From NCBI GenBank assembly GCA_002862805.1, contig PKEA01000013.1:1-64000 (forward strand): DNA of 64,000 bases, given 5' to 3'. Source of the DNA: Flavobacteriaceae bacterium. Lineage in GTDB: Bacteria; Bacteroidota; Bacteroidia; Flavobacteriales; Flavobacteriaceae. Under the pieces are notes generated by a model that worked only from the letters and a program-made list of their open reading frames with translations, did no database searches and was not told the DNA's origin. Below are positions 42,990 to 45,916 of the stretch, in pieces; position 1 is the first letter of the stretch; every line of letters begins with the position of its first letter. A program made the position numbers and the translations under genes.

Positions 42990-44888
42990 ATGAGTGACGC
43001 TATTAAACATGAATGCGGAATTGCACTATTAAGATTAAAAAAACCGTTAGAGTTTTACAAAGAAAAATACGGTACAGCTTTTTACGGAGTTCAAAAAATG
43101 TATTTGCTAATGGAAAAACAGCACAATCGCGGTCAAGATGGTGCAGGTTTAGCAAGTATAAAATTAGATGTTGCTCCAGGGCAACGTTATATAAGCCGTA
43201 TACGTTCTAATGATGCAAATCCTATTAAAGATGTTTTTGCACAGGTTAATGAACGAATTAATCACGAACTTTTAGAACACCCAGAATATCAAAATGATGT
43301 TCAGTTACAAAAAAATAATATTCCTTATATAGGCGAGTTATTTTTAGGACACGTACGTTATGGAACTTTTGGAAAAAACAGTATCGAAAGCGTACATCCA
43401 TTCTTGCGTCAGAATAATTGGATGCACCGCAATCTTATTGTTGCCGGGAATTTTAACATGACAAATGTTAAAGAGCTTTTTGATAGTTTGGTTGAATTAG
43501 GTCAGCATCCAAAAGAATTAGCTGATACTGTTACTGTAATGGAAAAAATAGGTCATTTTTTAGATGATGAAGTTACCGAAATTTACAAACAAGCAAAATT
43601 AGAAGGATTTACAAAGCAAGAAGCTTCAAAAGTAATTGTAGATAGATTAAATATTCCTAGAATATTAGAGCGTGCATCTCGTAACTGGGATGGAGGTTAT
43701 GCAATGGCTGGTTTATTAGGTCATGGAGATGCATTTGTAATGCGAGATCCAGCAGGTATTCGCCCGGCTTATTTTTATGAAGATGATGAAATTGTTGTTG
43801 TAGCTTCTGAAAGACCAGTTATTCAAACGGTTTTTAATGTTCCTTTTGATAAAGTACAAGAATTAACACCTGGAAACGCTATTGTAATTAAAAAAGATGG
43901 TTCTGTTTCACTTAATGAAGTGAGAACACCTTTGGTTAAAAAAGCATGTTCGTTTGAACGTATTTATTTTTCTCGTGGAAGTGATGCAGAAATTCACCAA
44001 GAACGTAAGAAATTAGGAAGATTGATTTTCCCAGCCATTTTAAAATCAATCGATAACGATACTGATAACACGGTTTTTTCATACATACCAAACACTGCCG
44101 AAACTTCTTTTTATGGAATGACAGAAGCGGCTCAAGACTTTTTGAATCAGAGAAAAACGGCTGAAATTTTAAAAAATAGAGATACGCTTTCAGAAGAAAA
44201 ACTAGCTGAAATTCTATCAGTTAAAATTCGAACAGAGAAAGTAGCAATTAAAGATGCAAAATTAAGAACTTTTATTACTGAAGACAGTAGTAGAGATGAT
44301 TTAGTTGCCCATGTGTATGATGTTACTTATGGAGTTGTGAAAACGACTGACAATTTGGTTATCATTGACGATAGTATTGTAAGAGGAACAACGCTGAAGC
44401 AAAGTATCATTAAAATGATGGATAGGCTTAAACCAAAGAAAATTGTTGTTGTGTCATCTGCACCACAAATTCGTTATCCTGACTGTTACGGTATTGATAT
44501 GGCTAAACTTGAAGGATTAGTTGCTTTTAGAGCCGCTATGGAGCTACTAAAAGACAGAGGTTTACTTCATATTGTTGAAGAAGTTTATAAAAAATCAAAA
44601 GCGCAAGAAAATTTAAAAGATGCTGAGGTTGTAAATTTTGTAAAAGAAATTTATGCTCCCTTTACAGATGAAGAAATATCAGACAAAATATCTGAAATGT
44701 TAACTCCAGAAAACACTCATGCTGAAGTTAAAATTATTTATCAAACGGTTGAAGATTTACATATAGCATGTCCAAAAAATCTTGGAGATTGGTACTTTAC
44801 AGGAGATTATCCTACAAATGGAGGAAACAGAGTTGTAAACAGAGCTTTCTTAAATTTTTATGAAGGAAATGATGCAAGAGCATATTAA
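42990..44888 (+). CDS. purF: Amidophosphoribosyltransferase
   Basis: First committed step of purine synthesis: PRPP plus glutamine to phosphoribosylamine. The 632 residues are longer than the E. coli enzyme (505), as usual for this branch. C9 in MSDAIKHECGI is the nucleophile, exposed after removal of an 8-residue propeptide. The Ntn glutaminase domain holds RGQDGAGL, GHVRYGTFG and AGNFNMTN. The PRPP site is VIIDDSIVRGTTLKQSI near 454-470. A roughly 100-residue stretch between (ERKKLGRLI to SSRDD) is the part that makes it long. Behind it lie the two tandem RNA candidates. Confidence 0.93.
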   Translation: MSDAIKHECGIALLRLKKPLEFYKEKYGTAFYGVQKMYLLMEKQHNRGQDGAGLASIKLDVAPGQRYISRIRSNDANPIKDVFAQVNERINHELLEHPEYQNDVQLQKNNIPYIGELFLGHVRYGTFGKNSIESVHPFLRQNNWMHRNLIVAGNFNMTNVKELFDSLVELGQHPKELADTVTVMEKIGHFLDDEVTEIYKQAKLEGFTKQEASKVIVDRLNIPRILERASRNWDGGYAMAGLLGHGDAFVMRDPAGIRPAYFYEDDEIVVVASERPVIQTVFNVPFDKVQELTPGNAIVIKKDGSVSLNEVRTPLVKKACSFERIYFSRGSDAEIHQERKKLGRLIFPAILKSIDNDTDNTVFSYIPNTAETSFYGMTEAAQDFLNQRKTAEILKNRDTLSEEKLAEILSVKIRTEKVAIKDAKLRTFITEDSSRDDLVAHVYDVTYGVVKTTDNLVIIDDSIVRGTTLKQSIIKMMDRLKPKKIVVVSSAPQIRYPDCYGIDMAKLEGLVAFRAAMELLKDRGLLHIVEEVYKKSKAQENLKDAEVVNFVKEIYAPFTDEEISDKISEMLTPENTHAEVKIIYQTVEDLHIACPKNLGDWYFTGDYPTNGGNRVVNRAFLNFYEGNDARAY

Positions 44889-44932
44889 TTGTGCACTTTA
44901 TCGATTATTTTATACGTTAAACAATTTTTTAA

Positions 44933-44962
44933 TTGATTTAACATTTGTCTATCATACTTTAG
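44933..44962 (+). promoter_or_regulatory. Promoter of tandem RNA copy 1
   Basis: TTG (44933-44935), 19 bases, TACTTTAG (44955-44962). The -7 box has one mismatch (A for T) to TAnnTTTG, and the same box TACTTTAG stands before copy 2. Confidence 0.5.
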
Positions 44963-44964
44963 CA

Positions 44965-45038
44965 CTACCAGAAAAATTAGTAGGTTAAGTTTTATGGTAG
45001 ATTTGGGGCAAAAAGGTGAAAGCAATTTCACCTTTTTT
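44965..45038 (+). ncRNA. Tandem small RNA, copy 1
   Basis: A roughly 75-base transcript predicted from the promoter position and terminator. It contains a 45-base core (44972-45016) that is repeated without change at 45171-45215. CTACCA at 44965-44970 can pair with TGGTAG at 44995-45000. The 3' end is an 11-bp stem AAAAGGTGAAA / TTTCACCTTTT (45011-45021, 45026-45036) with a GCAA loop and T-tail. A 22-codon frame starts at the internal ATG at 44994 (MVDLGQKG...), but it would run through the terminator. Known RNA classes of flavobacteria such as Flavo-1 exist; I cannot recall that consensus well enough to accept or exclude it. Confidence 0.65.
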
Positions 45039-45154
45039 TATTTATATAATTTCAATTGTTAATTAATAGTTTCTTAAATAAAAGCAAAAAACACCTTTTA
45101 TCGAATTTTTGAACAGTTTGTCAATTTTTTTATGCACGCATAATAAATTCAATC

Positions 45155-45162
45155 TACTTTAG
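45155..45162 (+). promoter_or_regulatory. -7 promoter box of tandem RNA copy 2
   Basis: TACTTTAG, identical to the box of copy 1 and exactly 200 bases from it. The -33 position has ATG (45132-45134, spacer 20) instead of TTG. Confidence 0.45.
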
Positions 45163-45164
45163 CT

Positions 45165-45238
45165 GAACCAAAAAATTAGTAGGTTAAGTTTTATGGTAGA
45201 TTTGGGGCAAAAAGGGTATGCAATGCATACCTTTTTTA
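45165..45238 (+). ncRNA. Tandem small RNA, copy 2
   Basis: Same layout as copy 1. The 45-base core (45171-45215) is identical to 44972-45016. Its terminator stem is different in sequence: GGTATGC (45215-45221), loop AAT, GCATACC (45225-45231), extended by an A/T-paired base and followed by T. The 5' part reads GCTGAACCA instead of GCACTACCA, so only ACCA can still pair with TGGT in the core. Core identity beside freely changed but structure-preserving terminator arms is the pattern of duplicated RNA genes, not of a coding sequence. Confidence 0.65.
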
Positions 45239-45262
45239 TTTTGTAAATATTTCAAATACAAA

Positions 45263-45289
45263 AAAAGGTTCGCAAAATGCGAACCTTTT
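45263..45289. terminator. Terminator of sodA (works on both strands)
   Basis: AAAAGGTTCGCA (45263-45274), loop AAA, TGCGAACCTTTT (45278-45289): a perfect 12-bp stem with A and T runs on its flanks. On the minus strand it ends sodA; on the plus strand it is a back-up for RNA copy 2. Confidence 0.88.
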
Positions 45290-45310
45290 ATATTTTAGCT
45301 TAAGAAGATG

Positions 45311-45916
45311 TTATTTTGCTACAACAAATCTTCTAGTAACTTCCGTCCAGTTGATTACATTAAAGAAAGCTTCAATATAATCTGGTCTTCTGTTTTGATA
45401 GTTTAAATAATAAGCATGTTCCCAAACATCCATTCCTAAAATTGGAGTTCCACCACAACCTACACCAGGCATTAAAGTATTGTCTTGGTTTGGAGTTCCA
45501 CAAACTTCAAGTTTTCCGTCTTTTACACAAAGCCAAGCCCATCCTGATCCAAATTGAGTTGCGCCAGCTTTAGCAAACGCAGCTTTAAAAGCATCAAATG
45601 ATCCAAATGCGCTGTCAATAGCATCTGCTAATTCACCAGTTGGTAAACCACCACCGTTTGGAGACATTACTGTCCAAAACAAACTATGGTTGTAAAAACC
45701 ACCACCGTTATTTCTTACGGCTGCATTACTCATGTCTAGGTTCAATAAAATATTTTCAATCGTTTTTCCTTCTAAATCTGTTCCTGCAATTGCGTTATTT
45801 AGATTGGTTGTATATCCATTATGGTGCTTAGTGTGATGTATTTCCATCGTTCTAGCATCAATATGTGGTTCAAGGGCGTCATACGCATATGGTAATTGTG
45901 GTAATTCGAAAGCCAT
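45311..45916 (-). CDS. sodA: Superoxide dismutase (Mn/Fe)
   Basis: Dismutes superoxide in the cytoplasm. The 201-residue protein has the metal ligands H27, H77, D163 and H167 ([19 protein letters not shown]). The N-terminus [18 protein letters not shown] and the [13 protein letters not shown] segment are typical. Mn or Fe preference cannot be fixed by eye; QFGSGWAWL is found in both. It is transcribed alone, from a palindromic divergent promoter region shared with the addA-like gene, and ends at a strong terminator. Confidence 0.96.

Follow-up and report, generated by a model that had tools for sequence, protein, structure and literature searches.

Two tandem genes of a probable trans-acting small RNA family spread across the Flavobacteriaceae

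Tandem sibling small RNAs (sRNAs), such as PrrF1/PrrF2 and the Neisseria pair, are neighboring copies that each have a promoter and a terminator and share the same core. Flavo-1 (RF01705) is an RNA found in Flavobacteria, and we know of no role for it. According to PMC11697453, the FopS RNAs of Bacteroides are multicopy, measure about 65 to 70 nucleotides (nt), have their 5' sequence in common, and are expressed from primary sigma factor promoters; B. thetaiotaomicron has 14 scattered copies (intergenic, antisense, and one in a 3' untranslated region), the RNAs are conserved within the Bacteroidaceae, and SusC-like targets and RbpB binding have been shown in Bacteroides. The same source names the Neisseria sRNAs as a sibling pair. 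For F. psychrophilum, PMC9723704 reports 85 new RNAs, among them Rfp18; deleting Rfp18 reduces the levels of two protease mRNAs in stationary phase, and it is said to pair with protease mRNAs through a third stem-loop. PMC5395568 describes F. columnare RNA candidates without Rfam matches. Here we analyzed a 64,000-nt stretch of DNA from a Flavobacteriaceae bacterium (contig PKEA01000013.1 of assembly GCA_002862805.1, positions 1 to 64,000; referred to as the window) that carries two tandem sRNA genes between a purF-like gene and a gene for an Fe/Mn superoxide dismutase (SOD), for which sodA is used as shorthand. These are probably two genes of a Flavobacteriaceae-wide, multicopy, trans-acting regulatory sRNA family with a G-rich linker as its seed.

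The PrrF1/PrrF2 and Neisseria siblings belong to another phylum, and the Flavobacteriaceae sRNA differs from them in forming an array that is kept at one place across a family. By description, the sRNA resembles FopS, which is likewise multicopy, is of similar length, keeps one 5' sequence across its copies, is expressed from primary sigma factor promoters, and belongs to the same phylum; however, the FopS copies are scattered, whereas the Flavobacteriaceae sRNA is arrayed at one place and is known here from sequence alone. The Flavo-1 model, at about 76 nt, is near the roughly 72 nt of the sRNA but has no match in the window, where no Rfam 15 family reaches its gathering cut-off. The 36 Rfam matches obtained up to an E value of 10 are all below their cut-offs, and the four alignments shown run over terminator stems. 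The Rfam comparison suggested by the initial annotation of this stretch, which had named the Flavo-1 model, thus shows that the RNA is not Flavo-1. Among 14 relatives searched with Rfam, a single Flavo-1 was found, away from the sRNA copies; it lies upstream of an SOD gene (L019:2846-2925, minus strand; RF01705, 82 bits), and the same relative has four sRNA copies as separate loci.

The initial annotation had proposed tandem sRNA genes with an identical 45-base core, each behind the same -7 box and each with a terminator stem of its own, and all of this held. The gap between the purF-like and SOD genes (44889-45310) contains the two RNA genes and no open reading frame (ORF) of at least 60 amino acids. 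A 45-nt direct repeat at 44972-45016 and 45171-45215 is 100% identical, with starts 199 apart; the box TACTTTAG stands before each copy, at 44955-44962 and 45155-45162, 200 apart; and intrinsic terminators follow at 45010-45037 (12 pairs) and 45209-45237 (13 pairs). The likeness extends further than had been noticed, since a 37-nt repeat (44897-44933 and 45097-45133) upstream of the copies is 73% identical and belongs to a conserved upstream element. Each copy has its own upstream element, box, core, and terminator. Copy 1 (44967-45040, forward strand) and copy 2 (45167-45239, forward strand) would each yield an RNA of about 72 nt, and they are the only copies in their genome at an E value of ≤0.001. 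In copy 1, a predicted 5' hairpin (44967-44998) with the apical loop GUAGGU (44980-44985) is followed by a near-invariant unpaired linker, GAUUUGGGGC (45000-45009), which we propose as the seed; the loop and linker of copy 2 are at 45179-45184 and 45199-45208. The whole RNAs fold better than most of their dinucleotide shuffles, with z values of -3.2 and -2.7. Five terminator-like sites were found in the gap (both strands, including one behind the SOD gene), against a shuffle mean of 0.1. The stem behind the SOD gene (45263-45289) is seen on both strands and could also stop read-through from the array.

To follow the sRNA across genomes, a covariance model (R1) was built from an alignment of 67 of 96 distinct copies with a hand-made structure and was applied at a threshold of E ≤0.001; the large searches use strict filters, by which weak matches are lost. 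R1 matches copy 1 at 44963-45040 (88.1 bits) and copy 2 at 45163-45239 (84.1 bits). The genus of the source genome is taken to be Flavobacterium, as loci from it are equal to those in named Flavobacterium records (e.g., L005 and L052), and the family would then be the Flavobacteriaceae. In the genus, 347 of 398 genomes match, the source genome included (297 of 333 good genomes); in the family, 314 of 397 genomes (280 of 330 good genomes) and 195 of 237 genera do so, with 1 to 7 matches per genome. Outside the family, no match was found in either an order sample (41 of 296 genomes matching, all in the family) or a phylum sample (26 of 296, all in the family). Other searches agree that the core occurs beyond this strain. 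As a DNA query, one copy matched 29 of 60 genomes (own included), of which 28 are in the genus and 1 (G058) is outside it with a match that covers the terminator end only. An exact 24-mer scan returned 38 stretches, two of them from one record, mostly labeled Flavobacterium, with some labeled only at family to class level and one labeled Chryseobacterium gleum. This last one, from a metagenome-assembled genome (L042), has the sRNA and a purF-like gene at 76% identity, as in several Flavobacterium-labeled loci, and its label may be wrong. The family is therefore spread far more widely than the initial annotation could see from the sequence, which likewise gave no view of the old place behind the purF-like gene or of the diverged form described below (type II).

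Weak and missing matches were inspected as well. Rows with a best E value above 1e-6 numbered 13 in the genus search and 5 in the family search; 10 of the 13 genus rows were looked up, and all 10 have a diverged copy behind the purF-like gene. In 8 further genus genomes and 10 genomes from nine other genera, a purF-like gene is present with no sRNA copy in the 1.5 kb fetched, and the matches of 21 to 24 bits in two of these loci were taken for terminators; one genome (G016) had no purF match. In one non-matching genome (G084, L263), the promoter is present behind the purF-like gene, but the core and the stretch after it read N, so that the model search has probably missed a copy here. A second model, R2, was run on 38 genomes (20 nonmatching genomes of the family and 18 of other families) and gave some match at E ≤0.1 in 31 of them (best, 39.9 bits). 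These were rejected as sRNA copies, since the six loci read are plain terminators; none of the four neighbor genes occurs in the 20 loci that were returned.

In most of the sampled genera the core keeps its sequence, whereas the terminator keeps only its structure. In 64 copies, mostly from other genera, the core reads ACCAtAA-cATaAGTAGGTTAAG-TTyATGGTAGATTTGGGGC-AAAAA; farther from the source genus the linker is found as GGGGC, GGGGA, or GGGACG, sometimes with one base more, and CCATARCATAAGTAGGTTAAGTTYATGGTA and GATTTGGG are kept in nearly all type I copies, as we call those with this core. Two alignments were compared, A4 (117 distinct rows), which was fitted to the structure and so favors it, and A1, which was aligned without structure. 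In A4, 9 of 11 terminator pairs are changed on both sides while 99.8% of cells remain paired, and the core has scarcely changed, which agrees with the earlier proposal of duplicated RNA genes with a selected core and free stems. Over the whole structure, 89.8% of A4 cells are paired, against at most 61.2% when the structure is slid, and 91.5% of A1 cells, against at most 62.2%. Pairs changed on both sides number 12 in A4, a count that 18 of 500 shuffles also attain (for the other measures, no shuffle does), and 7 in A1, where one slid version also reaches 7 pairs, with 13 cells versus 34. The 5' hairpin is less sure than the terminator: its both-side changes each come from a single sequence (at two pairs in A1 and at three in A4), and pairing across the three innermost pairs is 99% in A1 and 75.5% in A4. 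In one group of loci (L223-L231), the linker subtypes GGGGCAAAA, GGGGAAAAA, and GGGACGAAAA stand side by side within one array, and such mixtures may reflect a division of labor among copies. Separately, in 3 of 258 copies (L055, L060, L070), the complement of the linker lies behind the terminator of the copy, giving an extended palindrome.

A promoter-like box precedes the copies throughout. Upstream regions were compared for 209 of 212 copies, with one dropped for lack of an anchor and two for a short flank or N. The box reads TAnnTT(A/T)G, and its T, A, T, and T are found at four fixed places in at least 206 of 209 copies each, a figure favored by choosing the best box within a short window. 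A TAnnTTTG box starts 12 nt before the conserved ACCA in 193 of 209 copies, with distance ties broken towards 12. The primary sigma factor box of F. psychrophilum, as given in PMC9723704, is TAnnTTTG at -12 to -5; RNA starts are therefore expected at the ACCA (44967 and 45167). Farther upstream lies a putative element identified from the repeat and a conserved motif, TTTcATCGatTTTtT..gTTcAaCaat, a direct repeat with a period of 20 bp (copy 1, 44897-44926, half-sites 44897-44906 and 44917-44926; copy 2, 45097-45126, half-sites 45097-45106 and 45117-45126; all on the forward strand). The lag of 20 has a z value of 4.3 both in 154 copies from the genus search and the 24-mer scan, mostly Flavobacterium, and in 55 copies from other genera, whose motifs differ in letters; this z value was taken over other lags among related copies and is a guide, not a probability. 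A strict pattern of the element matches only the two copies in the source genome and nothing in 12 others, 8 of them of the genus with a differing element. According to PMC4847170, LytTR regulators bind two repeats of 9 to 11 nt with 11 to 13 nt between them, and E. coli YpdB binds repeats of GGCATTTCAT. Many sRNA copies read GCATTTCATCGA upstream, and the 20-bp period fits only the lower edge of the LytTR spacing. From this spacing, a LytTR-like activator on the repeat is our guess; a crude motif scan of 464 kb of the source genome found no LytTR protein.

The place of the array was scored in 127 distinct loci, after removal of 23 duplicates and exclusion of the own-genome loci, L031, L032, and L236, with the diverged copies of L264-L273 left out of the count; these are loci returned by the searches, mostly the best scoring, and thus not a random sample, and records may overlap. 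A purF-like gene lies directly upstream on the same strand in 120 of the 127 (median distance, about 90 nt); of the remaining seven, one is cut at a contig edge and six have the sRNA elsewhere. Convergent sodA is found within 1.5 kb in 97 loci, 21 lack it despite room, and 9 end too early. One copy is present in 42 loci, two in 47, three in 27, and four to six in 11, and neighboring copies are spaced by a median of 203 bp (123 of 139 within 170 to 260). Five kinds of neighborhood are represented among the six ectopic copies: adjoining a TerB/DnaJ-domain gene (L111 and L120), adjoining a PLP decarboxylase gene (L112), near rhodanese genes (L240), just past the end of a TonB-dependent receptor gene and on the opposite strand (L241), and with only one partial ORF nearby (L238). 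The genomes of L238, L240, and L241 also hold the usual array. These data indicate that the array has long been inherited at its place behind the purF-like gene and that the RNA is independent of its neighbors, and the ectopic copies, three of them in addition to the usual array, argue for action in trans.

The ten genus genomes with weak R1 matches that were looked up (L264-L273) carry a diverged form, type II, behind the purF-like gene, mostly reading AAATAGCATTAGTAAATTAATTTTTACGGTATTTTTGGGGGCAA, with an upstream element similar by eye to that of type I. Six type II matches occur in L273 alone. Type II copies are also found behind the purF-like gene in L232, where no Rfam family reaches its gathering cut-off. 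The folds of three type II copies differ from type I in that the partner of the 5' arm lies farther downstream and a GUAGG loop is not displayed. Most type II copies lack the AUG and read ACGG; the linker UUUGGGG, despite the changed loop and stem, is common to type I and nearly all type II copies. We named the linker as the seed because this run of G before the terminator is shared by both types. Type II is carried by a subclade, at the same place. On a tentative and rather speculative broader account, a family-wide core regulatory RNA would have arisen from one ancestral array behind the purF-like gene, and the partner that it binds would change only slowly; this partner could be a general RNA-binding protein, the ribosome, or many mRNAs with a site in common. 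In one Flavobacterium subclade, loop and stem would then have switched together while the G-rich linker was kept, and the partner, or the site in it, would have had to change as well.

Judged by sequence, the features expected of a multicopy, intrinsically terminated sRNA family are all present, namely, a promoter-like box, no ORF, a terminator, a conserved core, and several copies. It is nearly certain, in our judgment, that the sRNA family is real and is transcribed separately; it has the look of an old regulator that these bacteria share. In the mechanism that we propose, each copy would be a transcription unit of its own that uses the primary sigma factor, driven by an activator binding the 20-bp direct repeat. 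The RNA would open with a 5' hairpin showing GUAGG(U), followed by the unpaired linker and the terminator, and would act in trans through base pairing, with the G-rich linker as a shared seed and the loop as a second contact; several copies would raise the dose of one activity. Whether the sRNA acts mainly by base pairing is evenly balanced in our estimate. We nonetheless rank base pairing first and protein binding second, for three reasons: the G-rich linker is unpaired and persists in type II, some copies are ectopic, and FopS provides an analogy.

Several results weigh against this proposal. No targets were found in partial screens, which covered duplex energies in 17% of the source genome and two patterns in 41 genomes. 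The loop complement, at ≤3 mismatches, gave 1,151 matches versus 2,877 in the control and was rarer than the control in 41 of 41 genomes. The 14-nt linker complement, at ≤1 mismatch, gave 216 matches in the 41 genomes versus 52 in the reversed control, with about 59 being sRNA copies; however, the excess is not due to the sRNA, since it is equally large (32 versus 11) in the nine genomes without type I copies, two of which have type II. Twenty linker sites were read, picked for three spellings among the matches listed: 14 are in long frames on the sRNA-like strand, 3 are in long frames on the pairing strand, well inside genes (L302, L309, and L310), and 3 are in no long frame (L294, L303, and L311). 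At 400 ORF starts in the 464 kb scanned, duplexes were no better than in mid-gene windows (10 shuffles per seed), and the best duplex, -27.1 kcal/mol at a small protein starting MKKTNLL, is lower than the best duplex from every one of 30 shuffles (lowest, -26.3). Start regions of the four neighbor genes had z values of -1.7 to 1.0 (25 loci, 60 shuffles each, one consensus core for all) and are not candidates. The 5' hairpin is also a weak point: 82% of its cells are paired in A4, some outer and middle pairs often fail, the 5' parts without the terminator fold no better than most dinucleotide shuffles (z about -0.8 each), and the best single fold of copy 2 has a different 5' structure. Near invariance over about 33 nt exceeds the need of a pairing seed and also fits protein binding. 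In the source genome, the 18-nt linker-region complement, at ≤3 mismatches, has one site besides the two sRNAs, versus two in the reversed control; this site, which was rejected as a target, lies inside a long frame reading like the sRNA.

The main competitor to base pairing, which we consider a less likely explanation, is an RNA that uses its fixed hairpin and linker to hold or titrate an RNA-binding protein, with copy number setting the titrated amount. A core fixed on both stem arms and in the loop, the frequent presence of several copies per genome, and the lack of targets in the pattern and duplex screens all fit such a role, but in type II the loop and the stem differ together, a double change that any bound protein would need to accommodate, and there is no candidate protein, with Hfq and RNA recognition motif (RRM) proteins not having been searched for. 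On a separate question, compatible with base pairing, the sRNA might correspond to a transcript that has been described before in F. psychrophilum, for example Rfp18 or a different member of the 85 new Rfp RNAs, in which case only the family-wide view would be new. We regard this identity as rather doubtful: as far as the available description of Rfp18 goes, it pairs via a third stem-loop, whereas one sRNA copy has two, although read-through of two copies would give four. In the open literature searched, three 16-nt spellings of the core were not found in any paper, and none of the titles listed concerned a family-wide sRNA behind purF; expression of the sRNA may already be on record under another name.

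Readings in which the locus is not an independent RNA gene fare much worse. A processing or termination element of the purF-like or SOD mRNA would account for the fixed place in 120 of 127 loci but is very unlikely, given the box at a fixed distance before each copy, the six copies that lie elsewhere, and genomes in which the purF-like and SOD genes are adjacent without an array (e.g., L275 and L276). More improbable still is a small coding gene (AUG GUA GAU UUG GGG...), for which the type I core does provide an AUG: single-base insertions in the linker in other genera break the frame, the start is lost in most type II copies, third codon positions are by eye as fixed as the others, and the locus was therefore rejected as a small protein gene with a conserved reading frame. 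A mobile element was likewise rejected, with no match in plasmid or phage records at E 1e-5 and no exact pattern in viral contigs. Neither of the two origins that the initial annotation had named as evidence against RNA genes, a mobile or a coding element, is thus borne out.

An sRNA present in about four-fifths of the sampled Flavobacteriaceae genera, usually in a single location and with a core that hardly varies, would offer a way into posttranscriptional control in a very large family of environmental bacteria. The Rfam release searched does not contain this sRNA, and Rfam-based annotation will therefore miss it. The split between type I and type II is a natural test of what the core binds, and with one to few copies at a fixed place, the array could be deleted in one step in a laboratory Flavobacterium.

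The two genes flanking the array in the window are the neighbors conserved across the family. The convergent downstream neighbor (45311-45916, reverse strand) is of the sodA/sodB type and matches the Pfam domains Sod_Fe_N and Sod_Fe_C. The upstream neighbor (42990-44888, forward strand) had initially been called purF; PurF is indeed the best NCBIfam match of its 632-amino-acid product, and PurF chains are matched among solved structures, but the score of 122 bits is below the cut-off of 350, and we therefore call the gene purF-like. Its product may be a long PurF variant or a paralogue.
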